Below, piece by piece: positions 1 through 51,429 of a DNA stretch of 64,000 nucleotides. The translations under genes and the position numbers were made by a program. This stretch comes from Thysanoteuthis rhombus (lineage: Eukaryota > Mollusca > Cephalopoda > Oegopsida > Thysanoteuthidae): the NCBI GenBank assembly GCA_963457665.1, contig OY735218.1, positions 45,183,158-45,247,157 on the forward strand. The letters run 5' to 3'. Each line of letters starts with the position of its first letter. Position 1 is the stretch's first letter. The notes beneath the pieces are model-generated. The model was not told where the DNA came from. It was given only the letters and a program-made list of their open reading frames with translations, and made no database searches.

Positions 1-933
1 CCCAAAAAAACAGAATTGACAGTTTTAAAAAAATCACCCCCCAAAGAAACACAATTGACAGTCCTAAAAAAATCTTCCCCCCAAAAAACTGAAATAACAA
101 CTTTGAAAAAATCCCCCCCCAAAAAAACAGAACTGACAACATCTCCCAGACACACACCGAGACACACACCCAAGAAAAATCAGACAGTGCCAGAACCTAC
201 ACCTTCTCCAACTCCTCCATTGCCGCCCACTCTACTGTTATTTTCACAACCTCCCCCGCCACCGCCGCCGCCGCCGCCGCCATCACCGCCGCCGTCGTCG
301 TCCCCCCCATCAACACCATCAACAACAATATCAACAACAACAACACCTACACAAACACCAACACAATCGGCCTCACAAAAGAGGCCGAGAAGCCCAGCCG
401 GGGGAGACGCCGGCGAGCCTACCAAAAAAGAAAAAAAAGTACGACACAAGAGAGGGGTCCACATCTGCCGTGTCGACCCGGACATTTTAGAAAAATCGAA
501 GCTTCAGCAGCAAGCCCTAAGGAATTTAAAAGTCCTCCACAGTTTCCGGTTCGTCGAGCCCGGAAGACGCGACGTGGAGGACCCCACCTTGTTCCCAGGG
601 CTTAAAAAGCTGCTGACGGTAGTCCGGGTCGGAGACACCTCGCGGCAGGTGTGGGATATGCTCCGGGAGGCCAATGGGGCCTTCCAAATGACCACACCAC
701 TGGCTGTCTGGCATCATCCGGACTTGCAGAAACTGAAGAACTTTTGTTCAGGGAGGGTCCCCGTCTACATGCACCCCTCCCTTTATAGGGCAGCAAAACT
801 AACATTCCCTAGGCACGTCGGCGGCGTGTCCCTGGATGGCACCATCAGAACTGAGATGGGCACTGATCCTATGGGACCCGCTGTCGGTGTGCTATCACCG
901 GCAATGTTCGCGTCAGGAGGGCAACGCCAATAG
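1..933 (+). CDS. LINE ORF1, C-terminal part (U1)
   Basis: The frame is open from base 1, so this is a partial gene, not a gene starting near base 16 (the codon there is TTG). It covers the KSPPKKTELT-type repeats, the proline-rich linker (CCG-rich at about 250-312) and the conserved C-terminal region beginning KRGVHICRVDPDIL. ORF1 proteins of this LINE group bind element RNA. The part with the zinc knuckle lies upstream of the window. The stop is TAG at 931-933, and ORF2 begins nine bases later in the same frame. The sequence type matches U2 (PVYMHPS near the end). Confidence 0.85.
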   Translation, partial: PKKTELTVLKKSPPKETQLTVLKKSSPQKTEITTLKKSPPKKTELTTSPRHTPRHTPKKNQTVPEPTPSPTPPLPPTLLLFSQPPPPPPPPPPPSPPPSSSPPSTPSTTISTTTTPTQTPTQSASQKRPRSPAGGDAGEPTKKEKKVRHKRGVHICRVDPDILEKSKLQQQALRNLKVLHSFRFVEPGRRDVEDPTLFPGLKKLLTVVRVGDTSRQVWDMLREANGAFQMTTPLAVWHHPDLQKLKNFCSGRVPVYMHPSLYRAAKLTFPRHVGGVSLDGTIRTEMGTDPMGPAVGVLSPAMFASGGQRQ

Positions 934-942
934 ATTAACAAG

Positions 943-3900
943 ATGGCTCTCTATTTAGCAAGTTTGAATGGTCGTGGTTGCCGGAATGAGTCGAGAAGAG
1001 CTAGACTCTGTCGTCTCCTCCGGCACCTCGACGTGAGTATTTGTTGTTTACAGGAGACTCATTTTATTTCGAGCGACAATGAGAGTGTGCTGTCTCGAGA
1101 TTTCCGTCTCTTTTCAGCATATTTTGATTACCGCTCCAGAGGTGTCTCTTGGCTAATAAGCCATTCTTTGAATGCGGTGTGTTCCCTTGTGTATGCAGAC
1201 CCGGCGGGCAGATTGTGCGTCGTTGATGTTACCATAAGAGGGGAGGCTTTTCGTTTGATTGGGGTTTATGCGCCCAACGGCCAGGGTGAGCGAATCAACT
1301 TCTTTCGGCAGATCGATCAGTTCGTAGTTCCGTCGAGACGGCTAGTGTTAGCGGGTGATTGGAATGCCGTCCTTGATCCCGATATAGACCGAGGGGTAAA
1401 TAGGGGAACTAACAACGGTGACGTGATTCCGTTTCGGGATTTGATCAACAGGCTTGACCTGGTGGATAAATTCCGAAACGAACACCCCCGCCAAGTAGTA
1501 TGGACTTGGACTAATAGTGGCGACCCGAGTTCGGTGCAACGTTCCAGTTACATCGATCGGGTCTTAGCTAGAAGAGTCGACCATAAGTTTTTGGAATGTC
1601 CAAGTTTCCATAGCGTCCCCTTTTCGGACCATAGATTAGTAAGGGCCCGAATGAATTTAGGTATAGCTAAGCCCTTCAAGTCTGGTTACTGGAAATTCAA
1701 CACATCCCTCGTGGATATGGAGGATTTTCGGGACCAGCTAACATCACTAATCCAGCGGGAACTGACGGGGGCTATCCTGGGTAATAAATTCTGGGGGAAC
1801 CTCAAAAATAAAATTAGGTCTTTTGCTGCCGATTACAGTAGGCGACTCAACCTAGTGAGACTAGCGGCACAAAAGGCACTAGAAGATCGGATCGAGAGGG
1901 CGGTGGAGGGAGGGGACTCTAGCCAGGTTAAGATAGCTAAGGCAGAGTTGGCCTCCTTGCATGCCAAGAAGGATCAAGCTCTAGTAGTTAGAGCTAGATT
2001 AAAAAGAATGTCCCCCGAGGCAACGAATATGGCCGATGAGCTGAGGCTAGAAGAAATGAGGAGTGCGTCTAGTCGGTATATCTCCAGCGTCACATCGCCG
2101 GACGGACGTCTTGTGACCACAAACGAAGGTATCTGTGAGGTGTTTCGTGCCAATTTTCAGGAACTATTCACCAGGGAAGCTAGACTGAATTCGGCTCAGT
2201 TCGACGCCTATTTAGCTGACTTCCCTCGCCTTGAGGCGACTGAAGCAGCTGGGTGCGAGGGGCCCATAACAGAGGATGAAATCCGGGAAGCGTTAAAGAG
2301 CACCGAGAAGGAGAAGACACCGGGGATCGATGGTTTACCTTACGAAGTGTATTTGAGGCTGTCGCCCATTTTTGTTCACTTGCTGGCTTTGATCTTTAAC
2401 CACTGGTTAAAGCAGGGGAGAATCCCCAGCCGCTTTACCAGAGGGGTAGTGAAATTGCTATGCAAGGACAAAAATGGAGGGGACGGGGTAGATAACTTCA
2501 GGCCCATAACTCTGCTCAATACAGAGTTAAAGATTTTGGCCAAGGTCCTCGCCAACCGACTGCAGACTGTGCTGGAGAGTCTGATTGGCCCCGAACAGAC
2601 TTGCTCTGTAAAGGGTCGGACTATCCAAGACAATCTGCACACGGTGCGCACGATCATTGAGAAAGTCGACAATGGAGCCGCGCTGATCAAGTTAGATCAG
2701 TCCAAAGCATTCGATAGGGTCGACCATCGTTTTCTCGAGTCCGTCTTATCCGCGTCTGGCTTCGGTGAGATCTTTCGCTCCTGGATTCGTCTCTTGTATG
2801 CATCCCCCAGCTCGGTGGTGGAAGTGAATGGAGTGAGGTCGAAAGCCTTTCAGTTGTCCAGATCAGTTCGTCAAGGTTGTCCACTTTCGCCGATGCTGTA
2901 CATTCTTGCGCTGGAACCTTTCCTGCGCAAAGTAAAGGCGAATCCGGTCCTGCGCGGGCTAACCTTGCCTGGTGGTCACACGCCAGTCAAGTATACCGCC
3001 TACGTTGATGACATAACTTTGCTTGTAACGAGCAGTGCCGAGATCAGGGAAATCAGCGTAGAGATCCAAAGGTATGAGACGGTGACAGGGGCCAAAGCCA
3101 ACTGCGGCAAGTCTGAGGGCTTGTTGCTGGACTCGTGGAGAGGGCGCTCTCTCCCTGGTCCCTTTGCCTGGACGGAAGGGCCGTGCAAGATACTCGGCGT
3201 CTGGTTCGGTCCCGACCTCCAGTTGGAGAAAAATTGGTCGGGTGTACTGGAAAAGGTAGAGAAAGCAGTTGATCTGTGGACTCGGAGGAAGCTCTCCTTC
3301 AAGGGTAGGGCCGAGGTGTGCGTCTCTCACATCTACCCCCTTATCCTTTACCGACTTTCAGTGCTCCCTCTTCCGTGTACCGACCAACAAAAGTTGGAAG
3401 GTGCCATGTTTCGACTCCTATGGGGTCACAGGCACCCCATGGTATCTCGCAAGATCTGTCAGCTCCAACCTGCGGAAGGCGGCCTAGGAATGCCGAACAT
3501 CAAAGCTCGGCAACATAGTCTACGCTTGACTTTCTTAGGTCGGATGTGTACGCAAGAAGAGCAGAACGGCGAATTCTGGAAAGAAGACGCCAGGAAGGCT
3601 TTCCCAGCCTTAAGAAACGTGCATTCTGACGACGGGGGTGAGGCCCGCCGTAGACCCCGGGCGGAATGCTCTTTCTATCGAGAATGCCGACACGCTCTCC
3701 GAGTTTTTTCTCGGGTGAAGGTATGCCTCAACGACACCCGGTCGTTGTCGAGGAGGGCATTATATCGGGTAATAGTGAGGGGGGTCCGTTCGAGACGAAA
3801 TGATCGAGGGGCTCGGTTTAACGAAGGCGGAGAGTCGCTCAATCTGGCCTTGGACGCCCGGACTGAGGTGCCTCAATAACAACGAGGCGTCCCTCACCTG

Positions 3901-4393
3901 GCTAGTCATACGGAATGCTCTCTGGGTCGGCAAACGGCTTTTTGCAGCGGGTCTGGTAGTTTCACCAGAGTGCATGCGCTGTGGTGGAATGGAGGAGTCT
4001 ATTGAGCACGCCTTCTTCCACTGCAGCGTGGTGCAACCGCTGTGCAAGCTGGTTGAAGGCCACATGGTTCGCATCGTCGGGGCACGGTTTTTTGCCTTGG
4101 ATGCCAGTGTTGTCTGCAGCAATGTGTTCCCATCGTTGGAGAAGGACGCACATATAGTGCTAATGTGCTTACTTGGCGTGATGCGAATGGTGATTTGGAC
4201 GACGCGTCAGAAGGGGTTCCACGAAGGAGAGCGCTTCACTCCCGAACAACTGATTGCGTTCTTTGGGCACCAGCTCAAAGTCAAAATCAGGGTCGAGAGG
4301 GGGAGGCTCCCTTGGTCGGAATTCAACGGAAGGTGGGTGAGAGTTGCCCGACTGTGTCGAGTGAAAGGTGCTGAATTAGAGTGGTTTTTTTGA
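943..4393 (+). pseudogene. LINE ORF2 (endonuclease + reverse transcriptase), U1, one frameshift
   Basis: This is the same protein as the intact 1149-aa ORF2 of U2 (see 7589-11038), but a G-run at 3779-3784 has six G where other units have five. The frame is lost at about residue 945, after the RT domain and before the C-terminal CCHC. The first frame then stops at 3879, and the rest of the protein continues in the next frame to 4393. Endonuclease and RT motifs are unchanged. The change is a single base in a homopolymer, so a sequencing error is possible. If real, this copy makes a protein without its C-terminal zinc-binding region. Confidence 0.85.
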
Positions 4394-5269
4394 AAGTCTA
4401 TTGGTTAGTAAGGATTTTGCAGTCCTGACACGAACGTGCTAACCCAGCCCAGGTTAGGATAGATTAGATTTTCCTTTTCTGTTAGCCAACAGTTTCTTAG
4501 CTAGGGAGAGAATGATCATCGGCCCCCCTTTTTTTTTCTGTCCTCCACTTTTTTCGATTCCCATCCCCTCCCCCTCTAGATGACAGAAGGTAAAGTTTTC
4601 CAGAGGATGTTTGAGAGATTTTTTTTTTTTTTTTCTGTCTCAACATCCATCTTTTCGTCTGGTTAACTTACTGTTCTGCCATGTTAGGTCTTTTGTGGGG
4701 GGTCACATACTAATTTCGTTTTCGTTTTTTTTTTCTGTAAATATATATCAGTCATTGGGGTTCATTTTTATTTGTAAATATTTATCATAATTTTATTCCC
4801 CCCCCACACACAAAAATTGTAAATAGGGGTTTAGAGTAGTTTTTACATCATAGAGAGAATCTGACTTTATGGTAAATGCAGTATGAAAGAGACCAGGAAA
4901 AATGTGTTGTTTTGGTGAATGGATGTATATAGTGTGATTGGGTCAGTGCATGAGACTAGCTAAGATAAGATTAGGAATAGAGTTGACCAGTCCTTATACC
5001 CCATTCCCCCCTTCGACTTCATGTCATATTTCTCTCTTTCAGAGAATAAATAATCACAGATCGCTCACCGGGATTGTTGTTACCTTTTTTTGACTAAGAA
5101 AGACAAGTTTCCTGCGACCACACCGAACAAGATTACGGACTAGTAGGACCCCCTTGAAACTCTAGTTCGAAAAGATAAGCCCTTGTTGTTTTTTCGATTT
5201 GATTCGATTTTTTTTTTGTTCCGATTTTTTTGTTGTTTGTCTTAATTTTGTATTTTTTTCTCTCCCTTC
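4394..5269 (+). other. U1 3' UTR, U1/U2 junction and U2 5' UTR
   Basis: No gene. The 3' UTR has T-runs (about 4619-4634), a C8 run followed by an ACACACA tract near 4798-4812, and AATAAA at 5045-5050. CACAGAT at 5055-5061 marks the junction. The U2 5' UTR begins TCGCTCACCGGGATT and differs here from other units, which read TCGCTCGAC. It then shows the T-rich, CGATT-containing stretch (5190-5268) of the U2/U6 type. No TATA box is evident; LINE promoters are often internal, which cannot be judged here. Confidence 0.75.
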
Positions 5270-7579
5270 ATGGCCGACGAGGCCAGGAGGGCCTTGTTTG
5301 CTTCCCCCGATAAGGGGGAGGGCGGGGGCACATCCACACCCCCTAAAATAGGGAAAAAAAAACAAAAAAAACAAGAAAAAATGTCTACAACACAGACAAA
5401 CAGTACAAGTGAAAAGAATTCAGACATGAAAAAATCCCCCGTCCATGAAGGGAGGGGGGAAAATACAGACTCGCCGATTCCGGCGGGACAACAACAGCAA
5501 CAAGAAAAGACAAGTGGGGACTCTCCTAACGTTTGGTCATCCCCTCCCGTAATAAATACAGTCAATGTGGCGGAATTCGTCAAGCGTTGCCAGACATACA
5601 GTCACCTTGTAAAAGAGGACGGCTTACTGGTGGACTTGGTCGAATTGAAAGACATTGAGAAAAAAATGGTGTCCGTCTTTTTGGTCGACAAGAAGTCAAA
5701 CCGAATTGTCCGATCAAACAAAGACATAGTGTTGAAAGCACTGGCTAGCTTAGGAATCAAAGCCAAACAAGTTGTTAAAGGCGATGGCTTTGCGATGTGG
5801 GACGTACTATTGCCCACTGAACAGGACTGTTCAGATCTCCTGCGCCGAGAGCTCCAAACCAAGGAGTACTTTATTCGCGTTGAGTATCTCGGCCGGAGAA
5901 GGACCCGGGTAATAGCACATGAGGTGCCCAGCTTCGTACTCGGGGAACATATCGGGGCTTTTCTCCTGAAATACGGAGAAATTGTCTCGGTTGACTCCGA
6001 GGCGATGCGTGGGGAGTGGCGTTTTGATCTGATGATCGACAGGAAGGCGTTCCTGGCCATTCCCAACTATTTGGACATAGGTGGTCGGAGGCGACTGCCT
6101 CTTATCGTAAAAGGTAGGAGGCCAGTCTGCTGGATATGCGGGGAGGCCGGTCACCTCGCCGCTATCTGCAAAAAGAAACCGTCCAGCCTGACGCAAGACC
6201 CTTCCCACTCAGTTTCTGTGACCGCCCAAAAGGAGGCTCCCGTAGTCTCGCCTACTGCCATGACTGGAGGAATCCAGTCAGATGCCGGGAGAGGTAAAAG
6301 TCTCCCCTCACCTAAACCGTCGACTCCGTCACCAAAGGTGGTGGCACAAAAAGAGAAGACGGAGGGGGAGTGGCAGGTAGTAGGTCGTAGTGGGAAGAAG
6401 GCCCAAATAGAGGTACCCCTGTTGCCACATAGCCTAAAGCGAACCGACACCGACAGTCCCCAAGGAGAGACCCCGCAGTCTTATGCGGAACGGGCTAGAG
6501 TGGGGGGTTATGCTAGTCCAAGTCGTGAAAAAAAAGAAATGGCGGCGGCGTTGCTCATAAAACTTAAGTCCAGACAGCCAGCAGAGAGGGTTACCCCTCC
6601 ACCCTCTCCCCGAACAATACACAGTCCTTCAATAAAAAAATCACCCCCCAAAAAAACAGAATTGACAGTTTTAAAAAAATCACCCCCCAAAGAAACACAA
6701 TTGACAGTCCTAAAAAAATCTTCCCCCCAAAAAACTGAAATAACAACTTTGAAAAAATCCCCCCCCAAAAAAACAGAACTGACAACATCTCCCAGACACA
6801 CACCGAGACACACACCCAAGAAAAATCAGACAGTGCCAGAACCTACACCTTCTCCAACTCCTCCATTGCCGCCCACTCTACTGTTATTTTCACAACCTCC
6901 CCCGCCACCGCCGCCGCCGCCGCCGCCATCACCGCCGCCGTCGTCGTCCCCCCCATCAACACCATCAACAACAATATCAACAACAACAACACCTACACAA
7001 ACACCAACACAATCGGCCTCACAAAAGAGGCCGAGAAGCCCAGCCGGGGGAGACGCCGGCGAGCCTACCAAAAAAGAAAAAAAAGTACGACACAAGAGAG
7101 GGGTCCACATCTGCCGTGTCGACCCGGACATTTTAGAAAAATCGAAGCTTCAGCAGCAAGCCCTAAGGAATTTAAAAGTCCTCCACAGTTTCCGGTTCGT
7201 CGAGCCCGGAAGACGCGACGTGGAGGACCCCACCTTGTTCCCAGGGCTTAAAAAGCTGCTGACGGTAGTCCGGGTCGGAGACACCTCGCGGCAGGTGTGG
7301 GATATGCTCCGGGAGGCCAATGGGGCCTTCCAAATGACCACACCACTGGCTGTCTGGCATCATCCGGACTTGCAGAAACTGAAGAACTTTTGTTCAGGGA
7401 GGGTCCCCGTCTACATGCACCCCTCCCTTTATAGGGCAGCAAAACTAACATTCCCTAGGCACGTCGGCGGCGTGTCCCTGGATGGCACCATCAGAACTGA
7501 GATGGGCACTGATCCTATGGGACCCGCTGTCGGTGTGCTATCACCGGCAATGTTCGCGTCAGGAGGGCAACGCCAATAG
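5270..7579 (+). CDS. LINE ORF1 nucleic-acid-binding protein, U2 (769 aa)
   Basis: The start is the first ATG in frame, in the context TTCATGGCC. The N-terminus (1-90) is charged and low-complexity. Residues about 100-280 are globular; the part about 195-280 (RVIAHEVPSFVLGEHIGAFL onward) looks like the RRM-plus-knuckle arrangement seen in Tx1-type ORF1 and ZCCHC3-like proteins. A CCHC knuckle, CWICGEAGHLAAIC, lies at 287-300 (C-X2-C-X4-H-X4-C). Residues about 456-510 are Lys/Ser/Pro repeats, followed by a run of prolines. The last 160 residues, from KRGVHICRVDPD, are strongly conserved between units but match no domain I know. The inferred role is binding of the element's RNA in an RNP. The TAG stop is nine bases before ORF2 in the same frame. 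Confidence 0.88.
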   Translation: MADEARRALFASPDKGEGGGTSTPPKIGKKKQKKQEKMSTTQTNSTSEKNSDMKKSPVHEGRGENTDSPIPAGQQQQQEKTSGDSPNVWSSPPVINTVNVAEFVKRCQTYSHLVKEDGLLVDLVELKDIEKKMVSVFLVDKKSNRIVRSNKDIVLKALASLGIKAKQVVKGDGFAMWDVLLPTEQDCSDLLRRELQTKEYFIRVEYLGRRRTRVIAHEVPSFVLGEHIGAFLLKYGEIVSVDSEAMRGEWRFDLMIDRKAFLAIPNYLDIGGRRRLPLIVKGRRPVCWICGEAGHLAAICKKKPSSLTQDPSHSVSVTAQKEAPVVSPTAMTGGIQSDAGRGKSLPSPKPSTPSPKVVAQKEKTEGEWQVVGRSGKKAQIEVPLLPHSLKRTDTDSPQGETPQSYAERARVGGYASPSREKKEMAAALLIKLKSRQPAERVTPPPSPRTIHSPSIKKSPPKKTELTVLKKSPPKETQLTVLKKSSPQKTEITTLKKSPPKKTELTTSPRHTPRHTPKKNQTVPEPTPSPTPPLPPTLLLFSQPPPPPPPPPPPSPPPSSSPPSTPSTTISTTTTPTQTPTQSASQKRPRSPAGGDAGEPTKKEKKVRHKRGVHICRVDPDILEKSKLQQQALRNLKVLHSFRFVEPGRRDVEDPTLFPGLKKLLTVVRVGDTSRQVWDMLREANGAFQMTTPLAVWHHPDLQKLKNFCSGRVPVYMHPSLYRAAKLTFPRHVGGVSLDGTIRTEMGTDPMGPAVGVLSPAMFASGGQRQ
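6634..6789 (+). repeat. ORF1 internal peptide repeat (about 4 x 12-13 residues), U2
   Basis: Four imperfect copies of a Lys-Lys-Ser-Pro-Pro-Lys-Lys-Thr-Glu-Leu-Thr-type unit lie in tandem within ORF1. The same block is present in U1, U3, U6 and U7. In U4, U5 and U8 it is replaced by shorter, diverged versions, so this linker is the most variable part of the element. Confidence 0.8.
6896..6958 (+). repeat. CCG-rich polyproline tract in ORF1, U2
   Basis: The CCG/CCT/CCA run encodes a stretch of consecutive prolines, then Ser/Pro. It gives long antisense glycine-rich open frames in all type-A units; these are by-products. Equivalent tracts lie near 250-312, 13555-13615, 33385-33445 and 40070-40130, and shorter ones in U4, U5 and U8. 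Confidence 0.85.
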
Positions 7580-7588
7580 ATTAACAAG

Positions 7589-10500
7589 ATGGCTCTCTAT
7601 TTAGCAAGTTTGAATGGTCGTGGTTGCCGGAATGAGTCGAGAAGAGCTAGACTCTGTCGTCTCCTCCGGCACCTCGACGTGAGTATTTGTTGTTTACAGG
7701 AGACTCATTTTATTTCGAGCGACAATGAGAGTGTGCTGTCTCGAGATTTCCGTCTCTTTTCAGCATATTTTGATTACCGCTCCAGAGGTGTCTCTTGGCT
7801 AATAAGCCATTCTTTGAATGCGGTGTGTTCCCTTGTGTATGCAGACCCGGCGGGCAGATTGTGCGTCGTTGATGTTACCATAAGAGGGGAGGCTTTTCGT
7901 TTGATTGGGGTTTATGCGCCCAACGGCCAGGGTGAGCGAATCAACTTCTTTCGGCAGATCGATCAGTTCGTAGTTCCGTCGAGACGGCTAGTGTTAGCGG
8001 GTGATTGGAATGCCGTCCTTGATCCCGATATAGACCGAGGGGTAAATAGGGGAACTAACAACGGTGACGTGATTCCGTTTCGGGATTTGATCAACAGGCT
8101 TGACCTGGTGGATAAATTCCGAAACGAACACCCCCGCCAAGTAGTATGGACTTGGACTAATAGTGGCGACCCGAGTTCGGTGCAACGTTCCAGTTACATC
8201 GATCGGGTCTTAGCTAGAAGAGTCGACCATAAGTTTTTGGAATGTCCAAGTTTCCATAGCGTCCCCTTTTCGGACCATAGATTAGTAAGGGCCCGAATGA
8301 ATTTAGGTATAGCTAAGCCCTTCAAGTCTGGTTACTGGAAATTCAACACATCCCTCGTGGATATGGAGGATTTTCGGGACCAGCTAACATCACTAATCCA
8401 GCGGGAACTGACGGGGGCTATCCTGGGTAATAAATTCTGGGGGAACCTCAAAAATAAAATTAGGTCTTTTGCTGCCGATTACAGTAGGCGACTCAACCTA
8501 GTGAGACTAGCGGCACAAAAGGCACTAGAAGATCGGATCGAGAGGGCGGTGGAGGGAGGGGACTCTAGCCAGGTTAAGATAGCTAAGGCAGAGTTGGCCT
8601 CCTTGCATGCCAAGAAGGATCAAGCTCTAGTAGTTAGAGCTAGATTAAAAAGAATGTCCCCCGAGGCAACGAATATGGCCGATGAGCTGAGGCTAGAAGA
8701 AATGAGGAGTGCGTCTAGTCGGTATATCTCCAGCGTCACATCGCCGGACGGACGTCTTGTGACCACAAACGAAGGTATCTGTGAGGTGTTTCGTGCCAAT
8801 TTTCAGGAACTATTCACCAGGGAAGCTAGACTGAATTCGGCTCAGTTCGACGCCTATTTAGCTGACTTCCCTCGCCTTGAGGCGACTGAAGCAGCTGGGT
8901 GCGAGGGGCCCATAACAGAGGATGAAATCCGGGAAGCGTTAAAGAGCACCGAGAAGGAGAAGACACCGGGGATCGATGGTTTACCTTACGAAGTGTATTT
9001 GAGGCTGTCGCCCATTTTTGTTCACTTGCTGGCTTTGATCTTTAACCACTGGTTAAAGCAGGGGAGAATCCCCAGCCGCTTTACCAGAGGGGTAGTGAAA
9101 TTGCTATGCAAGGACAAAAATGGAGGGGACGGGGTAGATAACTTCAGGCCCATAACTCTGCTCAATACAGAGTTAAAGATTTTGGCCAAGGTCCTCGCCA
9201 ACCGACTGCAGACTGTGCTGGAGAGTCTGATTGGCCCCGAACAGACTTGCTCTGTAAAGGGTCGGACTATCCAAGACAATCTGCACACGGTGCGCACGAT
9301 CATTGAGAAAGTCGACAATGGAGCCGCGCTGATCAAGTTAGATCAGTCCAAAGCATTCGATAGGGTCGACCATCGTTTTCTCGAGTCCGTCTTATCCGCG
9401 TCTGGCTTCGGTGAGATCTTTCGCTCCTGGATTCGTCTCTTGTATGCATCCCCCAGCTCGGTGGTGGAAGTGAATGGAGTGAGGTCGAAAGCCTTTCAGT
9501 TGTCCAGATCAGTTCGTCAAGGTTGTCCACTTTCGCCGATGCTGTACATTCTTGCGCTGGAACCTTTCCTGCGCAAAGTAAAGGCGAATCCGGTCCTGCG
9601 CGGGCTAACCTTGCCTGGTGGTCACACGCCAGTCAAGTATACCGCCTACGTTGATGACATAACTTTGCTTGTAACGAGCAGTGCCGAGATCAGGGAAATC
9701 AGCGTAGAGATCCAAAGGTATGAGACGGTGACAGGGGCCAAAGCCAACTGCGGCAAGTCTGAGGGCTTGTTGCTGGACTCGTGGAGAGGGCGCTCTCTCC
9801 CTGGTCCCTTTGCCTGGACGGAAGGGCCGTGCAAGATACTCGGCGTCTGGTTCGGTCCCGACCTCCAGTTGGAGAAAAATTGGTCGGGTGTACTGGAAAA
9901 GGTAGAGAAAGCAGTTGATCTGTGGACTCGGAGGAAGCTCTCCTTCAAGGGTAGGGCCGAGGTGTGCGTCTCTCACATCTACCCCCTTATCCTTTACCGA
10001 CTTTCAGTGCTCCCTCTTCCGTGTACCGACCAACAAAAGTTGGAAGGTGCCATGTTTCGACTCCTATGGGGTCACAGGCACCCCATGGTATCTCGCAAGA
10101 TCTGTCAGCTCCAACCTGCGGAAGGCGGCCTAGGAATGCCGAACATCAAAGCTCGGCAACATAGTCTACGCTTGACTTTCTTAGGTCGGATGTGTACGCA
10201 AGAAGAGCAGAACGGCGAATTCTGGAAAGAAGACGCCAGGAAGGCTTTCCCAGCCTTAAGAAACGTGCATTCTGACGACGGGGGTGAGGCCCGCCGTAGA
10301 CCCCGGGCGGAATGCTCTTTCTATCGAGAATGCCGACACGCTCTCCGAGTTTTTTCTCGGGTGAAGGTATGCCTCAACGACACCCGGTCGTTGTCGAGGA
10401 GGGCATTATATCGGGTAATAGTGAGGGGGTCCGTTCGAGACGAAATGATCGAGGGGCTCGGTTTAACGAAGGCGGAGAGTCGCTCAATCTGGCCTTGGAC

Positions 10501-11038: not shown

Positions 11039-11927
11039 AAGTCTATTGGTTAGTAAGGATTTTGCAGTCCTGACACGAACGTGCTAACCCAGCCCAGGTT
11101 AGGATAGATTAGATTTTCCTTTTCTGTTAGCCAACAGTTTCTTAGCTAGGGAGAGAATGATCATCGGCCCCCCTTTTTTTTTCTGTCCTCCACTTTTTTC
11201 GATTCCCATCCCCTCCCCCTCTAGATGACAGAAGGTAAAGTTTTCCAGAGGATGTTTGAGAGATTTTTTTTTTTTTTTTCTGTCTCAACATCCATCTTTT
11301 CGTCTGGTTAACTTACTGTTCTGCCATGTTAGGTCTTTTGTGGGGGGTCACATACTAATTTCGTTTTCGTTTTTTTTTTCTGTAAATATATATCAGTCAT
11401 TGGGGTTCATTTTTATTTGTAAATATTTATCATAATTTTATTCCCCCCCCACACACAAAAATTGTAAATAGGGGTTTAGAGTAGTTTTTACATCATAGAG
11501 AGAATCTGACTTTATGGTAAATGCAGTATGAAAGAGACCAGGAAAAATGTGTTGTTTTGGTGAATGGATGTATATAGTGTGATTGGGTCAGTGCATGAGA
11601 CTAGCTAAGATAAGATTAGGAATAGAGTTGACCAGTCCTTATACCCCATTCCCCCCTTCGACTTCATGTCATATTTCTCTCTTTCAGAGAATAAATAATC
11701 ACAGATCGCTCGACTGGATTGTTGTTACTTTTTTGGCAAAAAAAAAAAAGACAAGTTTCCTGCGACCACACCGAACAAGATAACGGACTAGTAGGACCCC
11801 CTTGAAACTCTAGTTCGAAAAGATAAGCCCTTGGTTTTTTGACTCGATTTGACTCAAATTGACTCGATTTTTTTTATTATTTCGATTTTGTTGTTTGTCT
11901 CGATTTTGTATTTTTTTCTTTCCCTTC
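11039..11927 (+). other. U2 3' UTR, U2/U3 junction and U3 5' UTR
   Basis: No gene. The 3' UTR matches that of U1. AATAAA is at 11690-11695 and CACAGAT at 11700-11706, followed by CGCTCGACTGGATTG. The U3 5' UTR has an A-run near 11739-11749 and three GACTC motifs within 30 bp (11841-11865), the 5' UTR type shared with U4, U5, U7 and U8. Confidence 0.75.
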
Positions 11928-37515: not shown

Positions 37516-37737
37516 GATCTATTGGTTAATTAAGGATTTTGCAGTCCTGACACGAACGTGCTAACCCAGCCCAGGTTAGGATAGATTAGATTTTCCTTTT
37601 CTGTTAGCCAACAGTTTCTTAGCTAGGGAGAGAATGATCATCAGCCCCCCTTTTTTTTTCTGTCCTCCACTTTTTTCGATTCCCATCCCCTCCCCCTCTA
37701 GATGACAGAAGGTAAAGTTTTCCAGAGGATGTTTGAG

Positions 37738-37777
<40 letters not shown>

Positions 37778-40750: not shown

Positions 40751-40759
40751 ATTAACAAG

Positions 40760-43700: not shown

Positions 43701-44209
43701 AGGCGTCCCTCACCTGGCTAGTCATACGGAATGCTCTCTGGGTCGGCAAACGGCTTTTTCTAGCGAATCTGGTAGATTCACCAGAGTGCATACGCTGTGG
43801 TGGAATGGAGGAGTCTATTGAGCACGCCTTCTTCCACTGCAGCGTGGTGCATCCGCTGTGCAAGCTGGTTGAAGGCTACATGGTCCGCATCGTCGGGGCA
43901 CGGTTTTTTGCCTTGGATGCCAGTGTTGTCTGCAGCAATGTGCTCCCATCGTTGGAGAAGGACGCACATATAGTGCTAATGTGCTTACTTGGCGTGATGC
44001 GAATGGTGATTTGGACGACGCGTCAGAAGGGGTTCCACGAAGGAGAGCATTTCACTCCCGAACAACTGATTGCGTTCTTTGGGCACCAGCTCAAAGTCAA
44101 AATCAGGGTCGAGAGGGGGAGGCTCCCTTGGTCGGAATTCAACGGAAGGTGGGTGAGAGTTGCCCGACTGTGTCGAGTGAAAGGTGCTGAATTAGAGTGG
44201 TTTTTTTGA
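40760..44209 (+). CDS. LINE ORF2: APE endonuclease, reverse transcriptase, CCHC, U7 (1149 aa)
   Basis: Full length with all catalytic motifs. The endonuclease region is of the common type but has VQHSSYID, a marker shared with U4. The RT part has KSIEKEK and CKDKDGG plus a private KQGSIPSRF. The last 350 residues are the U4-type variant (LFLANLVDSPECIRCGG and linked changes) but with ERGRLPW as in most units. Confidence 0.92.
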   Translation: MALYLASLNGRGCRNESRRARLCRLLRHLDVSICCLQETHFISSDNESVLSRDFRLFSAYFDYRSRGVSWLISHSLNAVCSLVYADPAGRLCVVDVTIRGEAFRLIGVYAPNGQGERINFFRQIDQFVVPSRRLVLAGDWNAVLDPDIDRGVNRGTNNGDVIPFRDLINRLDLVDKFRNEHPRQVVWTWTNSGDPSSVQHSSYIDRVLARRVDHKFLECPSFHSVPFSDHRLVRARMNLGIAKPFKSGYWKFNTSLVDMEDFRDQLTSLIQRELTGAILGNKFWGNLKNKIRSFAADYSRRLNLVRLAAQKALEDRIERAVEGGDSSQVKIAKAELASLHAKKDQALVVRARLKRMSPEATNMADELRLEEIRSASSRYISSVTSPDGRLVTTNEGICEVFRANFQELFTREARLNSAQFDAYLADFPRLEATEAAGCEGPITEDEIREALKSIEKEKTPGIDGLPYEVYLRLSPIFVHLLALIFNHWLKQGSIPSRFTRGVVKLLCKDKDGGDGVDNFRPITLLNTELKILAKVLANRLQTVLESLIGPEQTCSVKGRTIQDNLHTVRTIIEKVDNGAALIKLDQSKAFDRVDHRFLESVLSASGFGEIFRSWIRLLYASPSSVVEVNGVRSKAFQLSRSVRQGCPLSPMLYILALEPFLRKVKANPVLRGLTLPGGHTPVKYTAYVDDITLLVTSSAEIREISVEIQRYETVTGAKANCGKSEGLLLDSWRGRSLPGPFAWTEGPCKILGVWFGPDLQLEKNWSGVLEKVEKAVDLWTRRKLSFKGRAEVCVSHIYPLILYRLSVLPLPCTDQLKLEGAMFRLLWGHRHPMVSRKICQLQPAEGGLGMPNIEARQHTLRLTFLGRMCTQEEQNGEFWKEDARKAFPALRNVHSDDGGEARRRPRAECSFYRECRHALRVFSRVKECLNDTQSLSRRALYRVIVRGSVRDGMIEGLGLTKAESRSIWPWTPGLRCLNNNEASLTWLVIRNALWVGKRLFLANLVDSPECIRCGGMEESIEHAFFHCSVVHPLCKLVEGYMVRIVGARFFALDASVVCSNVLPSLEKDAHIVLMCLLGVMRMVIWTTRQKGFHEGEHFTPEQLIAFFGHQLKVKIRVERGRLPWSEFNGRWVRVARLCRVKGAELEWFF

Positions 44210-45103
44210 GATCTATTGGTTAATTAAGGATTTTGCAGTCCTGACACGAACGTGCTAACCCAGCCCAGGTTAGGATAGATTAGATTTTCCTTTTCTGTTA
44301 GCCAACAGTTTCTTAGCTAGGGAGAGAATGATCATCAGCCCCCCTTTTTTTTTCTGTCCTCCACTTTTTTCGATTCCCATCCCCTCCCCCTCTAGATGAC
44401 AGAAGGTAAAGTTTTCCAGAGGATGTTTGAGAGGTTTTTTTTTTTTTTTTTTTCTCTCTCGACATCCATCTTTTCGTCTGGTTAACTTGCTATTCTGCCA
44501 TGTTAGGTCTTTTGTGGGGGGTCACATACTAATTTCGTTTTCGTTTTTTTTTCTGTAAATATATATCAATCATTGGGGTTCATTTTTATTTGTAAATATT
44601 TATCATAATTTTATTCCCCCCCCACACACAAAATTGTAAATAGGGGTCTAGAGTAGTTTTTTACATCATAGAGAGAATCTGACTTTATGGTAAATGCAGT
44701 ATGAAAGAGACCAGGAAAAATGTGTTGTTTTGGTAAATGGATGTATATAGTGTGATTGGGTCAGTGCATGAGACTAGCTAAGATAAGATTAGGAATAGAG
44801 TTGACCAGTCCTTATACCCCACTCCCCCCTTCGACTTCATGTCATATTTCTCTCTTTCAGAGAATAAATAATCACAGATCGCTCGACGGGATTGTTGGTA
44901 CTTTTTTTGGCGAAAAAAAAAAAAGACAAGTTTCCTGCGACCACACCGAACAAGATTACGGACTAGTAGGACCCCCTCGAAACTCTAGTTCGAAAAGATA
45001 AGCCCTTGGTTTTTTGACTCGATTTGACTCAAATTGACTCGATTTTTTTTTATTATTTCGATTTTGTTGTTTGTCTCGATTTTGTATTTTTTTCTTTCCC
45101 TTC
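44210..45103 (+). other. U7 3' UTR, U7/U8 junction and U8 5' UTR
   Basis: No gene. T-run near 44436-44452, AATAAA at 44863-44868, CACAGAT at 44873-44879. The U8 5' UTR is nearly identical to that of U7. Confidence 0.75.
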
Positions 45104-47320
45104 ATGGCCGACGAGGCCAGGAGGGCCTTGTTTGCTTCCCCCGATAAGGGGGAGGGCGGGGGCACATCCACACCCCCTAAAATAGGGAAAAAAAAACAAA
45201 AAAAACAGGAAAAAATGTCTACAACACAGACAAACAGTACAAGTGAAAAGAATTCAGACATGAAAAAATCCCCCGTCCATGAAGGGAGGGGGGAAAATAC
45301 AGACTCGCCGATTCCGGCGGGACAACAACAGCAACAAGAAAAGACAAGTGGGGACTCTCCTAACGTTTGGTCATCCCCTCCCGTAATAAATACAGTCAAT
45401 GTGGCGGAATTCGTCAAGCGTTGCCAGACATACAGTCACCTTGTAAAAGAGGACGGCTTACTGGTGGACTTGGTCGAATTGAAAGACATTGAGAAAAAAA
45501 TGGTGTCCGTCTTTTTGGTCGACAAGAAGTCAAACCGAATTGTCCGATCAAACAAAGACATAGTGTTGAAAGCACTGGCTAGCTTAGGAATCAAAGCCAA
45601 ACAAGTTGTTAAAGGCGATGGCTTTGCGATGTGGGACGTACTATTGCCCACTGAACAGGACTGTTCAGATCTCCTGCGCCGAGAGCTCCAAACGAAGGAG
45701 CATTACATTCGTGTTGAGTATCTCGGCCGGAGAAGGACCCGGGTAATAGCACATGAGGTGCCCAGCTTCGTACTCGGGGAACATATCGGGGCTTTTCTCC
45801 TGAAATACGGAGAAATTGTCTCGGTTGACTCCGAGGCGATGCGTGGGGAGTGGCGTTTTGATCTTATGATCGACAGGAAGGCGTTCCTGGCCATTCCCAA
45901 CTATTTGGACATAGGTGGTCGGAGGCGACTGCCTCTTATCGTAAAAGGTAGGAGGCCAGTCTGCTGGATATGCGGGGAGGCCGGTCACCTCGCCGCTATC
46001 TGCAAAAAGAAACCGTCCAGCCTGACGCAAGACCCTTCCCACTCAGTTTCTGTGACCGCCCAAAAGGAGGCTCCCGTAGTCTCGCCTACTGCCATGACTG
46101 GAGGAATCCAGTCAGATGCCGGGAGAGGTAAAAGTCTCCCCTCACCTAAACCGTCGACTCCGTCACCAAAGGTGGTGGCACAAAAAGAGAAGACGGAGGG
46201 GGAGTGGCAGGTAGTAGGTCGTAGTGGGAAGAAGGCCCAAATAGAAGCACCCCTGTTGCCACATAGCCTAAAGCGAACCGACACCGACAGTCCCCAAGGA
46301 GAGACCCCGCAGTCTTATGCGGAACGGGCTAGAGTGGGGGGTTACGCTAGTCCAGGACGAATAGGGAAGGAAAAGGCGGCGGCACTTCTTCAACAACTAA
46401 AGTCCAGGCAGCCAGCAGGGAGGGTTACCCCTCCGCCCTCCCCAAAAACATTACAAAGTCCACCCACGAAAAAATCAACCCCAGAAAAACCAAAACTGAC
46501 AGTACTAGGAAAAAAATCTACCCCCCAAAAAACACCAATACCTTCACCTACACCCCCATTACCGTCCACATCACCGCTACCTCCGCCGCCGCCTCCACCG
46601 TTGATTATGTTTCCTCCCTCAACAACAGCAACACCAGCAGCCACACCAAAACCTTCCCCAAAAGTAACACCATCAGCATCACCAGCAACAACACCAGCAA
46701 CAACACCAACATCAGCAACAACAACAACAAGCACACCCATGTCACCTACACAATCGGCCTCACAAAAGAGGCCGAGAAGCCCAGCCGGGGGTGATACCGG
46801 CGAGCCCACCAAAAAAGAGAAAAAAATCAGACACAAGAGAGGGGTCCACATCTGCCGTGTCGACCCGGACATTCTCGACAAGACAAAGCTCCAGCAGCAG
46901 GCCCTGAGGGATTTAAAGGTCCTCCACAACTTCCGGTTCGTTGAACCTGGAAGACGTGATGTGGAGGACCCTACCTTGTTCCCAGGGCTAAAGAAAGTAC
47001 TGACTGTGGTCCGGGTTGGTGACACCTCACGGCAGGTGTGGGACATGTTAAAAGAAGCCAACTTAGCTTTCAAAATGTCATCACCGCTGGCTGTCTGGCA
47101 TCATCCAGACCTCCACAAACTGAAAAACTTTTGTTCAGGGAGGGTCCCCGTCTTCATGCACCCCTCCCTTTATAGGGCAGCAAAACTAACATTCCCTAGG
47201 CACGTCGGCGGCGTGTCCCTGGATAGCACCATCAAGACTGAGATGGGCACTGATCCTATGGGACCCGCTGTCGGTGTGCTATCACCGGCAATGTTCGCGT
47301 CAGGAGGGCAACGCCAATAG
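45104..47320 (+). CDS. LINE ORF1 nucleic-acid-binding protein, U8 (738 aa, third linker type)
   Basis: The N-terminal half equals U7 (TKEHYIRV, PHSLKRT), then switches at SPGRIGKEK to a type-B-like half. The linker is a third version (KKSTPEKPKLTVLGKK, ending in Thr/Ser/Ala/Pro-rich sequence). The C-terminus mixes types: DILDKTK and KVLHNF as in U4/U5, but LDSTIKTEMG is private. CCHC knuckle intact. TAG, nine bases, ORF2 in frame. This is a clear within-gene mosaic. Confidence 0.88.
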   Translation: MADEARRALFASPDKGEGGGTSTPPKIGKKKQKKQEKMSTTQTNSTSEKNSDMKKSPVHEGRGENTDSPIPAGQQQQQEKTSGDSPNVWSSPPVINTVNVAEFVKRCQTYSHLVKEDGLLVDLVELKDIEKKMVSVFLVDKKSNRIVRSNKDIVLKALASLGIKAKQVVKGDGFAMWDVLLPTEQDCSDLLRRELQTKEHYIRVEYLGRRRTRVIAHEVPSFVLGEHIGAFLLKYGEIVSVDSEAMRGEWRFDLMIDRKAFLAIPNYLDIGGRRRLPLIVKGRRPVCWICGEAGHLAAICKKKPSSLTQDPSHSVSVTAQKEAPVVSPTAMTGGIQSDAGRGKSLPSPKPSTPSPKVVAQKEKTEGEWQVVGRSGKKAQIEAPLLPHSLKRTDTDSPQGETPQSYAERARVGGYASPGRIGKEKAAALLQQLKSRQPAGRVTPPPSPKTLQSPPTKKSTPEKPKLTVLGKKSTPQKTPIPSPTPPLPSTSPLPPPPPPPLIMFPPSTTATPAATPKPSPKVTPSASPATTPATTPTSATTTTSTPMSPTQSASQKRPRSPAGGDTGEPTKKEKKIRHKRGVHICRVDPDILDKTKLQQQALRDLKVLHNFRFVEPGRRDVEDPTLFPGLKKVLTVVRVGDTSRQVWDMLKEANLAFKMSSPLAVWHHPDLHKLKNFCSGRVPVFMHPSLYRAAKLTFPRHVGGVSLDSTIKTEMGTDPMGPAVGVLSPAMFASGGQRQ

Positions 47321-47329
47321 ATTAACAAG

Positions 47330-50300
47330 ATGGCTCTCTATTTAGCAAGTTTGAATGGTCGTGGTTGCCGGAATGAGTCGAGAAGAGCTAGACTCTGTCG
47401 TCTCCTCCGGCACCTCGACGTGAGTATTTGTTGTTTACAGGAGACTCATTTTATTTCGAGCGACAATGAGAGTGTGCTGTCTCGAGATTTCCGTCTCTTT
47501 TCAGCATATTTTGATTACCGCTCCAGAGGTGTCTCTTGGCTAATAAGCCATTCTTTGAATGCGGTGTGTTCCCTTGTGTATGCAGACCCGGCGGGCAGAT
47601 TGTGCGTCGTTGATGTTACCATAAGAGGGGAGGCTTTTCGTTTGATTGGGGTTTATGCGCCCAACGGCCAGGGTGAGCGAATCAACTTCTTTCGGCAGAT
47701 CGATCAGTTCGTAGTTCCGTCGAGACGGCTAGTGTTAGCGGGTGATTGGAATGCCGTCCTTGATCCCGATATAGACCGAGGGGTAAATAGGGGAACTAAC
47801 AACGGTGACGTGATTCCGTTTCGGGATTTGATCAACAGGCTTGACCTGGTGGATAAATTCCGAAACGAACACCCCCGCCAAGTAGTATGGACTTGGACTA
47901 ATAGTGGCGACCCGAGTTCGGTGCAACGTTCCAGTTACATCGATCGGGTCTTAGCTAGAAGAGTCGACCATAAGTTTTTGGAATGTCCAAGTTTCCATAG
48001 CGTCCCCTTTTCGGACCATAGATTAGTAAGGGCCCGAATGAATTTAGGTATAGCTAAGCCCTTCAAGTCTGGTTACTGGAAATTCAACACATCCCTCGTG
48101 GATATGGAGGATTTTCGGGACCAGCTAACATCACTAATCCAGCGGGAACTGACGGGGGCTATCCTGGGTAATAAATTCTGGGGGAACCTCAAAAATAAAA
48201 TTAGGTCTTTTGCTGCCGATTACAGTAGGCGACTCAACCTAGTGAGACTAGCGGCACAAAAGGCAGTAGAAGATCGGATCGAGAGGGCGGTGGAGGGAGG
48301 GGACTCTAGCCAGGTTAAGATAGCTAAGGCAGAGTTGGCCTCCTTGCATGCCAAGAAGGATCAAGCTCTAGTAGTTAGAGCTAGATTAAAAAGAATGTCC
48401 CCCGAGGCAACGAATATGGCCGATGAGCTGAGGCTAGAAGAAATTAGGAGTGCGTCTAGTCGGTATATCTCCAGCGTCACATCGCCGGACGGACGTCTTG
48501 TGACCACAAACGAAGGTATCTGTGAGGTGTTTCGTGCCAATTTTCAGGAACTATTCACCAGGGAAGCTAGACTGAATTCGGCTCAGTTCGACGCCTATTT
48601 AGCTGACTTCCCTCGCCTTGAGGCGACTGAAGCAGCTGGGTGCGAGGGGCCCATAACAGAGGATGAAATCCGGGAAGCGTTAAAGAGCATCGAGAAGGAG
48701 AAGACACCGGGGATCGATGGTTTACCTTACGAAGTGTATTTGAGGCTGTCGCCCATTTTTGTTCACTTGCTGGCTTTGATCTTTAACCACTGGTTAAAGC
48801 AGGGGAGAATCCCCAGCCGCTTTACCAGAGGGGTAGTGAAATTGCTATGCAAGGACAAAGATGGAGGGGACGGGGTAGATAACTTCAGGCCCATAACTCT
48901 GCTCAATACAGAGTTGAAGATTTTGGCCAAGGTCCTCGCCAACCGACTGCAGACTGTGCTGGAGAGTCTGATTGGCCCCGAGCAGACTTGCTCTGTAAAG
49001 GGTCGGACTATCCAAGACAATCTGCACACGGTGCGCACGATCATTGAGAAAGTCGACAATGGAGCCGCGCTGATCAAGTTAGATCAGTCCAAAGCATTCG
49101 ATAGGGTCGACCATCGTTTTCTCGAGTCCGTCTTATCCGCGTCTGGCTTCGGTGAGATCTTTCGCTCCTGGATTCGTCTCTTGTATGCATCCCCCAGCTC
49201 GGTGGTGGAAGTGAATGGAGTGAGGTCGAAAGCCTTTCAGTTGTCCAGATCAGTTCGTCAAGGTTGTCCACTTTCGCCGATGCTGTACATTCTTGCGCTG
49301 GAACCTTTCCTGCGCAAAGTAAAGGCGAATCCGGTCCTGCGCGGGCTAACCTTGCCTGGTGGTCACACGCCAGTCAAGTATACCGCCTACGTTGATGACA
49401 TAACTTTGCTTGTAACGAGCAGTGCCGAGATCAAGGAAATCAGCGTAGAGATCCAAAGGTATGAGACGGTGACAGGGGCCAAAGCCAACTGCGGCAAGTC
49501 TGAGGGCTTGTTGCTGGACTCGTGGAGAGGGCGCTCTCTCCCTGGTCCCTTTGCCTGGACGGAAGGGCCGTGCAAGATACTCGGCGTCTGGTTCGGTCCC
49601 GACCTCCAGTTGGAGAAAAATTGGTCGGGTGTACTGGAAAAGGTAGAGAAAGCAGTTGATCTGTGGACTCGGAGGAAGCTCTCCTTCAAGGGTAGGGCCG
49701 AGGTGTGCGTCTCTCACATCTACCCCCTTATCCTTTACCGACTTTCAGTGCTCCCTCTTCCGTGTACCGACCAACAAAAGTTGGAAGGTGCCATGTTTCG
49801 ACTCCTATGGGGTCACAGGCACCCCATGGTATCTCGCAAGATCTGTCAGCTCCAACCTGCGGAAGGCGGCCTAGGAATGCCGAACATCAAAGCTCGGCAA
49901 CATAGCCTACGCTTGACTTTCTTAGGTCGGATGTGTACGCAAGAAGAGCAGAACGGCGAATTCTGGAAAGAAGACGCCAGGAAGGCTTTCCCAGCCTTAA
50001 GAAACGTGCATTCCGACGACGGGGGTGAGGCCCGCCGTAGACCCCGGGCGGAATGCTCTTTCTATCGAGAATGCCGACACGCTCTCCGAGTTTTTTCTCG
50101 GGTGAAGCTATGCCTCAACGACACCCGGTCGTTGTCGAGGAGGGCATTATATCGGGTAATAGTGAGGGGGTCCGTTCGAGACGAAATGATCGAGGGGCTC
50201 GGTTTAACGAAGGCGGAGAGTCGCTCAATCTGGCCTTGGACGCCCGGACTGAGGTGCCTCAATAACAACGAGGCGTCCCTCACCTGGCTAGTTATACGGA

Positions 50301-50779
50301 ATGCTCTCTGGGTCGGCAAACGGCTTTTTGCAGCGGGTCTGGTAGTTTCACCAGAGTGCATGCGCTGTGGTGGAATGGAGGAGTCTATTGAGCACGCCTT
50401 CTTCCACTGCAGCGTGGTGCAGCCGCTGTGCAAGCTGGTTGAAGGCCACATGGTTCGCATCGTCGGGGCACGGTTTTTTGCCTTGGATGCCAGTGTTGTC
50501 TGCAGCAATGTGTTCCCATCGTTGGAGAAGGACGCACATATAGTGCTAATGTGCTTACTTGGCGTGATGCGAATGGTGATTTGGACGACGCGTCAGAAGG
50601 GGTTCCACGAAGGAGAGCGTTTCACTCCCGAACAACTGATTGCGTTCTTTGGGCACCAGCTCAAAGTCAAAATCAGGGTCGAGAGGGGGAGGCTCCCTTG
50701 GTCGGAATTCAACGGAAGGTGGGTGAGAGTTGCCCGACTGTGTCGAGTGAAAGGTGCTGAATTAGAGTGGTTTTTTTGA
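47330..50779 (+). CDS. LINE ORF2: APE endonuclease, reverse transcriptase, CCHC, U8 (1149 aa)
   Basis: Full length and open, with the endonuclease, YVDD and C-terminal CCHC as in U2. Private changes are AQKAVEDRI, AEIKEISVE and VKLCLNDTRS. RT markers are KSIEKEK/CKDKDGG (as in U4, U5, U7) and the C-terminus is the common type. Confidence 0.92.
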   Translation: MALYLASLNGRGCRNESRRARLCRLLRHLDVSICCLQETHFISSDNESVLSRDFRLFSAYFDYRSRGVSWLISHSLNAVCSLVYADPAGRLCVVDVTIRGEAFRLIGVYAPNGQGERINFFRQIDQFVVPSRRLVLAGDWNAVLDPDIDRGVNRGTNNGDVIPFRDLINRLDLVDKFRNEHPRQVVWTWTNSGDPSSVQRSSYIDRVLARRVDHKFLECPSFHSVPFSDHRLVRARMNLGIAKPFKSGYWKFNTSLVDMEDFRDQLTSLIQRELTGAILGNKFWGNLKNKIRSFAADYSRRLNLVRLAAQKAVEDRIERAVEGGDSSQVKIAKAELASLHAKKDQALVVRARLKRMSPEATNMADELRLEEIRSASSRYISSVTSPDGRLVTTNEGICEVFRANFQELFTREARLNSAQFDAYLADFPRLEATEAAGCEGPITEDEIREALKSIEKEKTPGIDGLPYEVYLRLSPIFVHLLALIFNHWLKQGRIPSRFTRGVVKLLCKDKDGGDGVDNFRPITLLNTELKILAKVLANRLQTVLESLIGPEQTCSVKGRTIQDNLHTVRTIIEKVDNGAALIKLDQSKAFDRVDHRFLESVLSASGFGEIFRSWIRLLYASPSSVVEVNGVRSKAFQLSRSVRQGCPLSPMLYILALEPFLRKVKANPVLRGLTLPGGHTPVKYTAYVDDITLLVTSSAEIKEISVEIQRYETVTGAKANCGKSEGLLLDSWRGRSLPGPFAWTEGPCKILGVWFGPDLQLEKNWSGVLEKVEKAVDLWTRRKLSFKGRAEVCVSHIYPLILYRLSVLPLPCTDQQKLEGAMFRLLWGHRHPMVSRKICQLQPAEGGLGMPNIKARQHSLRLTFLGRMCTQEEQNGEFWKEDARKAFPALRNVHSDDGGEARRRPRAECSFYRECRHALRVFSRVKLCLNDTRSLSRRALYRVIVRGSVRDEMIEGLGLTKAESRSIWPWTPGLRCLNNNEASLTWLVIRNALWVGKRLFAAGLVVSPECMRCGGMEESIEHAFFHCSVVQPLCKLVEGHMVRIVGARFFALDASVVCSNVFPSLEKDAHIVLMCLLGVMRMVIWTTRQKGFHEGERFTPEQLIAFFGHQLKVKIRVERGRLPWSEFNGRWVRVARLCRVKGAELEWFF

Positions 50780-51429
50780 AATCTATTGGTTAATTAAGGA
50801 TTTTGCAGTCCTGACACGAACGTGCTAACCCAGCCCAGGTTAGGATAGATTAGATTTTCCTTTTCTGTTAGCCAACAGTTTCTTAGCTAGGGAGAGAATG
50901 ATCATCAGCCCCCCTTTTTTTTCTGTCCTCTACTTTTTTCGATTCCCATCCCCTCCCCCTCTAGATGACAGAAGGTAAAGTTTTCCAGAGGATGTTTGAG
51001 AGATTTTTTTTTGTCTTGACATCCATCTTTTCGTCTGGTTAACTTACTGTTCTGCCACGTTAGGTCTTTTGTGGGGGGTCACATACTAATTTCGATTTCG
51101 TTTTTTTTTTCTGTAAATATATATCAGTCATTGGGGTTCATTTTTATTTGTAAATATTCATCATAATTTTATTCCCCCCCCACACACAAAATTGTAAATA
51201 GGGGTCTAGAGTAGTTTTTACATCATAGAGAGAATCTGATTTTATGGTAAATGCAGTATGAAAGAGACCAGGAAAAATGTGTTGTTTTGGTAAATGGATG
51301 TATATAGTGTGATTGGGTCAGTGCATGAGACTAGCTAAGATAAGATTAGGAATAGAGTTGACCAGTCCTTATACCCCACTCCCCCCTTCGACTTCATGTC
51401 ATATTTCTCTCTTTCAGAGAATAAATAAT
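50780..51429 (+). other. U8 3' UTR
   Basis: About 650 bp without a gene. It has the shortest T-run of the array (about 51004-51013), a C8 run followed by an ACACACA tract near 51174-51187, and AATAAA at 51420-51425, four bases before the element end. A polyadenylation signal so close to the end suggests that the transcript end and the integrated end nearly coincide. Confidence 0.7.

Follow-up and report, generated by a model that had tools for sequence, protein, structure and literature searches.

Head-to-tail arrays of an L1/Tx1-group LINE at a monomer border in the 5′ UTR of another LINE in Thysanoteuthis rhombus

Organization of the LINE Array

The window, i.e., the whole stretch of 64,000 nucleotides that was analyzed (C21:45183158-45247157), belongs to the Thysanoteuthis rhombus assembly, which was searched (2.73 Gb, 514 contigs). 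In this assembly, a contig bearing mitochondrial sequence (C198) has two COX1 copies per 20,544 bases and uses TGA for tryptophan; a duplication of cox1-3 has been reported for an oegopsid squid (PMC7800340), which makes an oegopsid origin probable. The window contains eight LINE copies in register, all on the plus strand and with a spacing of 6,570-6,694 bases. They comprise one partial unit (1-5054) and seven complete units (5055-51429) of about 6.6 kb. The junctions between the units are exact with the single exception of 9 extra bases ahead of 24971, which bears out the head-to-tail arrangement of eight same-direction copies described in an earlier note on this DNA. Using 80 kb fetched leftward, the start of the array was located at C21:45161614, 21.5 kb left of the window. 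From there to window position 51429, where it ends, the array contains 11 complete units in 72,973 bp. The earlier note was right that the array overruns the left edge of the window, but the size that it called unknown is finite, and an open-ended left side is rejected.

Unit 4 of 11 is represented in the window by its right part only (1..5054; unit start at -1591), with an open ORF1 and an ORF2 cut to 978 aa. The complete unit 5 (5055..11699) carries ORF1 at 5270-7579 (769 aa, with a putative CCHC-like knuckle) and ORF2 at 7589-11038 (1149 aa, with APE-type endonuclease, reverse transcriptase (RT) and zf-RVT). Both ORFs are also open in the complete units 6 (11700..18355) and 7 (18356..24970) as well as in unit 9 (31540..38206; ORF2 of 1145 aa), unit 10 (38207..44872) and the rightmost unit 11 (44873..51429). 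Unit 7 has a diverged ORF1 middle and a 'Y' type 3′ end, followed by the 9-base junction tag GGGTAAGAG (24962..24970, plus strand) at the border to the 5′ end of unit 8. In unit 8 (24971..31539), ORF1 is open and ORF2 is broken (792 aa). It is the one exception among the seven complete units of the window, six of which keep both ORFs, as had been read from the sequence before.

Over the whole array, ORF1 is open in all 11 units (738-770 aa) and ORF2 has a length of 1,145-1,149 aa in nine of them. Between units, 0 to 302 mismatches were counted in about 6.6 kb. The identity between neighbors is 95.65-100%, and nine of the ten neighbor pairs differ; units 4 and 5 show zero mismatches and one indel. 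For ORF2, the pN/pS was found to be 0.38, pooled over 14 copies with 1,149 aa (17 units read from two arrays), which suggests selection on active copies. The middle of ORF1 occurs in two forms about 15-20% apart, the remainder being much closer (C21 and C36b units, approximately columns 1500-2500 of the alignment). This pattern suggests module exchange.

In a profile search, ORF2 matched Exo_endo_phos (1.2e-13), RVT_1 (4.7e-32) and zf-RVT (1.5e-9) and thus combines an APE-type endonuclease with a LINE reverse transcriptase, as is typical of the L1/Tx1 group. Among solved proteins, human L1 ORF2p comes closest (2.5e-77 over residues 5-856), compared to 2.4e-22 for the best R2 protein, so that the earlier assignment to the L1 group is supported. 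The zf-CCHC match of ORF1 (7.5e-4) reached 19.9 bits, slightly below the curated cut-off of 20.8.

Target Site in the 5′ UTR of the Host LINE

Both flanks of the C21 array were identified as the 5′ UTR of another, abundant LINE (host LINE), a target that the first reading had missed. The sequence left of unit 1 ends with AAATCCACCGTGGGAAAAGAT. Right of unit 11 it continues with CACAGATTGCGAGAC (51430..51444), which is the right half of the target and the start of a host-LINE 5′ UTR monomer of 733 bp (51430..52162). A second, empty copy of the 15-base site is located at 52163..52177, at the start of the unique 5′ region of the host LINE, and the host LINE ORF (1156 aa) at 52547..56017; all of these features are on the plus strand. 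The profile search of this ORF yielded RVT_1 and zf-RVT only, the latter with 23.1 bits and below the cut-off of 27.5, and no APE domain. Its best solved relatives are R2 proteins (1.3e-23). An R2-related reverse transcriptase lacking an APE endonuclease corresponds to elements of the R2/HERO/R4 type. A motif that may belong to a restriction-like endonuclease was noticed by eye. Elsewhere in the window, a short open frame on the minus strand (58998-59495) resembles, by eye, the end of the reverse transcriptase protein of another LINE.

In copies of the host LINE, the monomers are 730-974 bp in length between starts bearing the same 15 bases, and within the stretch read at least two monomer starts were present in four of the seven copies checked. 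The border pattern had 707 matches genome-wide, filled and empty sites pooled. Among 100 of these that were listed, 98 carry the host letters (ATTGC) and two the element letters (ATCGC); one of the 98, on C3, is actually filled, which makes the count of empty sites inexact. On C3 (30537323-30589168), dozens of host-LINE 5′ UTR borders follow in succession, mostly about 1 kb apart; here the host LINE seems to be building a long satellite from its promoter-like monomers.

A small RNA gene was also considered as the target and is not supported for the C21 array, the target of which is the monomer border of the host LINE. The search of the window against Rfam gave no match reaching the gathering score, and around one unit only three matches at chance level were found (E 2.7-4.3). 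In the C12 and C9 flanks and at the junctions L137-L139, nothing was detected in Rfam up to E 0.1. On these results, the presence of a known RNA, such as a self-cleaving ribozyme, within the unit or at its junctions is rejected.

Distribution of the Family in the Genome

The 5′-end pattern of the array LINE was matched 106 times genome-wide with up to 3 mismatches. Among the 100 5′ ends listed, 96 have a same-strand neighbor within 9 kb, or 93 are clustered if three pairs separated by about one host monomer are counted as apart. The spacing is 6.5-6.75 kb in 74 of 78 cases. Besides the window's array, both other arrays and solo copies, which the earlier note had thought worth looking for, are present in the genome: the listed 5′ ends form 22 clusters of 1 to 11, and there are single insertions, of which those on C3 and C4 and the second one on C30 were missed by the pattern. 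Arrays are the typical state of the family.

A 40-mer from ORF2 had 258 matches compared to 228 for a marker 0.46 kb from the 5′ end, so strongly 5′-cut copies seem to be few. Many further copies are clustered on C12 (2.07-4.36 Mb) and C9 (52.5-53.0 Mb), with other sequences at the junctions read. One off-target copy, on C17, adjoins unrelated DNA with CACAGATCGCTCGAC at its 5′ end, and this 15-mer can therefore be borne by the element. It agrees with the target 15-mer in 12 positions, for which random letters in this register would have a chance of 1.2e-5.

A unit spacing of 8,260 bases, about 1.6 kb above the usual value, was found at C36:12400069-12408329 and is probably due to an insertion within a unit. 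At C36:12428166-12428902 and C26:6626109-6627021, two arrays, or an array and a single copy, lie about one host monomer apart, which indicates that adjacent monomers of one host LINE were struck separately.

Target Site Duplications and Junction Tags

In total, 91 junction windows of 1 kb were read, covering 89 of the 100 listed 5′ ends and two on C10. They consist of 21 left host borders, 34 untagged and 35 tagged internal junctions, and the C17 copy. The left host borders have the form CCACCGTGGG plus 7 bases, followed by CACxxAT. The right border, CACAGATTGC, is the same monomer start in 20 of 21 flanks and belongs to the unique 5′ region of the host in one, the right ends having been located with a pattern requiring CACAGATYGC.

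A clean duplication of 8 bp, GAGAAGAA, was found at single insertions on C12 and C13. The single insertion on C3 is flanked by a clean duplication of the 15 bp CACAGATTGCGAGAC, 14 bases of which are duplicated on C30. Clean target duplications thus flank these four solo copies; other single insertions lack them, such as the one on C4, with altered left letters. In a run of copies on C12, all four junctions read (left border, right end and two internal ones) carry a 35-base duplication, which adjoins unrelated DNA at the right end. A 27-mer of this duplication has 33 exact matches, all on the minus strand of C12. The left neighbor of the C12 run (L137, C12:2825600-2826300) appears by eye to be the 3′ UTR of a related but distinct LINE, followed by the same 35 bases. 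Different LINE families may share one site on C12.

At most arrays, the letters of the left border (e.g., GGNAAGAG, CACxxATCGC) are unlike those of empty sites (GGGAAGAA, CACAGATTGC). Most 5′ junctions are consequently not simple duplications. The array LINE shows the precise insertion at one sequence and the target duplication of a target-specific LINE, clean duplications coming from four single insertions and the one C12 run, with altered letters at the remaining left borders. Tx1L is a target-specific LINE of the Tx1 clade. Target-specific LINEs of this clade, Keno among them, were reportedly treated by Kojima and Fujiwara in 2004.

The tag at an internal junction (last 7 letters) is identical to the left-edge tag of its own array in 28 of 31 cases, for which the left border of the array was read; four of the 35 tags had no such border for comparison. 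Compared with the left borders of other arrays, tags matched 69 times out of 634. Of the three that disagree with their own array, two are in C36b and one is the sole tag of the window's C21 array (GGGTAAGAG). Units of different haplotype within one array carry the same tag, so the tag derives from the site. That the 7 bases CACxxAT are fixed to element lineages was rejected, as one 5′ UTR haplotype occurs with CACAGAT, CACAAAT and CACCGAT.

Similarity of 5′ and 3′ Ends Between Units

For the comparison of neighbors, 65 units with both ends read were used, with 343 bases at the 5′ end and near-identity defined as at most one mismatch. Near-identical 5′ ends were found in 17 of 52 neighbor pairs, in 10 of 147 other pairs of the same array and in 2 of 1881 pairs between arrays. 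For the 3′ UTRs, the corresponding numbers were 7/52, 10/147 and 40/1881. When the order was shuffled within arrays, the observed neighbor count was reached in 0 of 5000 trials for the 5′ ends compared to 1149 of 5000 for the 3′ ends; these tests use related sequences, so that P values are rough. Units with a local near-identical 5′ end are more frequent in the left halves of nine arrays (23/33) than in the right halves (14/33; P 0.0001).

The 3′ UTRs differ by 7.4-7.6 mismatches on average inside arrays and by 14.9 between arrays, since arrays tend toward one of two 3′ types. Only 33 of 69 units had their nearest 3′ UTR within their own array. Near-identity at both ends was observed in 3 of the 52 neighbor pairs, and some whole-unit duplications do occur, as in units 4 and 5 of C21.

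In C21, C26 and C36a, the 5′ end of the leftmost unit recurs in the unit next to it; in C29 and C36b it recurs in unit 3. The leftmost unit is preceded by host DNA and its partner by another unit, so the shared tract stops at the junction. In C21, tracts in common with the right neighbor range between 13 and 1,520 bases (one mismatch allowed, the identical pair apart). They are limited to 13-21 bases in C36b because the likeness there is to the second neighbor: unit 1 equals unit 3 along its entire length, a perfect 6.6-kb copy, while unit 2 equals unit 4 over the first 1 kb only and then continues with another body. The ends in C29 are in the same order, as judged from the unit ends; the full footprint was seen once, in C36b.

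Model of Array Formation

Starting from the observed target, the exact junctions, the duplicated letters in some single insertions and the array-specific tags, we consider it likely that the arrays were formed by repeated site-specific insertion at a renewed left border, with 5′ ends often completed by copying of resident units. The copying is a step that we infer. The L1/Tx1-group LINE inserts at a single border within the tandemly repeated 5′ UTR monomers of the host LINE. The left border of an existing unit would stay a good target, with the host half of the site kept at the left and the right half restored either through target duplication or by the 5′ end of the element itself (12 of 15 positions matching). 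Each new copy would tend to land ahead of the last one, and arrays would grow leftward, a direction drawn from the tags and from the counts in left and right halves (23/33 vs. 14/33). The unfinished 3′ end of the new cDNA would often anneal to the 5′ part of a unit already in place and copy it up to the host border.

Repeated insertion at a left-renewed site would explain the target, the tags, the exact joints and the mixed subfamilies. Copying of the 5′ part at insertion would account for the polarity and the C36b footprint, and also for the small number of cut copies and the inheritance of tags within arrays. Against the model stand the altered letters at most left borders, including the single C4 insertion, the three of 31 tags that disagree, among them the only one of the window's array, and the 3′ UTRs, which are also tied to arrays (7.4-7.6 vs. 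14.9 mismatches).

It is possible, if rather unlikely, that repeated insertions hit a persistent target without any copying and that ordinary gene conversion then made the 5′ ends alike. This reading fits the target duplications and the array-specific tags, and gene conversion is common in tandem arrays. However, conversion should affect 3′ ends too, and those of neighbors match the shuffled order; moreover, the leftmost units share their 5′ ends with the next unit or with unit 3 in tracts that stop at the junction. Part of the pattern would be reproduced by a conversion limited to 5′ ends, which counts against the model of copying.

Unequal crossing-over, or replication-linked tandem duplication, from one founding insertion seems improbable as the source of the arrays. 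It would account for C21 units 4 and 5, which have no mismatch, for the identity of C36b units 1 and 3, for the three neighbor pairs near-identical at both ends and for 3′ UTRs that are on average closer within arrays than between them. Yet in crossing-over chimeras the 3′ end should match that of the left neighbor equally often, and neighboring 3′ ends are no closer than in shuffled order. In addition, units of one array are up to 302 mismatches apart, the nearest 3′ UTR is in the same array for 33 of 69 units only, and the body of C36b unit 2 is absent from its 5′ twin, unit 4.

Multimeric or circular intermediates, such as two-unit read-through RNA or LINE-derived circles, could be inserted as ready tandems, and an excerpt of PMC3510499 describes circular products of a fungal L1-clade element in yeast. 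This origin is very improbable given that nine of ten neighbor pairs in C21 differ, with identity down to 95.65%, and that the C36b footprint combines two sources within one unit. That the arrays are a product of the assembly, from which the C21 array is known, is extremely unlikely: the 100 listed 5′ ends fall into 22 clusters, the units differ in sequence and the tags are of several kinds. Unit differences of 0 to 302 mismatches argue against assembly stutter.

Of the two explanations offered in the earlier note, repeated insertion at a kept or rebuilt site is supported by the target duplications, the array-specific tags and the single target, whereas crossing-over alone is not supported, as 5′ but not 3′ ends are tied.

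The model of repeated insertion with copied 5′ ends can tentatively be extended to a self-extending array, a reading that we hold to be slightly less probable than its opposite. Each insertion would renew the target upstream, unfinished cDNAs would be completed by strand invasion and copying of resident units (up to more than one unit), and the arrays would provide templates for repair, through which the family stays active and full length.

LINE copies elsewhere are often 5′-truncated. The completion of LINE insertion is described as poorly understood in an excerpt of PMC6895275. In the arrays, one site has kept the traces of many successive insertions, and a possible template is still present next to each product, so that the sequence reveals where each 5′ end came from. 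Residence in the promoter-like repeats of another LINE would be a way for a LINE to multiply without hitting genes.

Comparison With Known Systems

Site-specific LINEs, transposons as their targets and occasional tandem insertion are already known, as far as an excerpt of PMC4640811 goes; it lists transposons among the targets of target-specific LINEs and mentions one Utopia family 'occasionally inserted in tandem in U2 genes'. Among the titles and abstracts searched, no report described a site-specific LINE that usually stands in arrays, or 5′ ends copied from neighbors, subscription journals being mostly outside this coverage.

The target-specific LINEs of the Tx1 clade are similar to the array LINE in having an APE-type endonuclease and one site in a multicopy sequence. 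They differ from the array LINE, most listed copies of which are arranged head-to-tail and which targets a monomer border within the 5′ UTR of another LINE. Utopia, as characterized in the excerpt, is site-specific like the array LINE, but it has a restriction-like endonuclease and its tandem insertion is occasional, whereas tandem is the usual state here.

Like the array LINE, the Zepp LINEs of a green alga are clustered on several chromosomes, with copies of one LINE in a cluster (PMC3446292, in excerpt). According to the same partial source, Zepp clusters are nested, one per chromosome and probably centromeric, whereas the units of the array LINE are full length and abut at one target.

The Drosophila telomere LINEs are HeT-A, TART and TAHRE (excerpt of PMC10088271). 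Their arrays are, as in the present case, built of LINEs. As presented in that part of the source, they make up the chromosome ends. A head-to-tail arrangement is common to HeT-A, TART and TAHRE. In contrast to these chromosome ends, the arrays described here are internal and tied to one target sequence.
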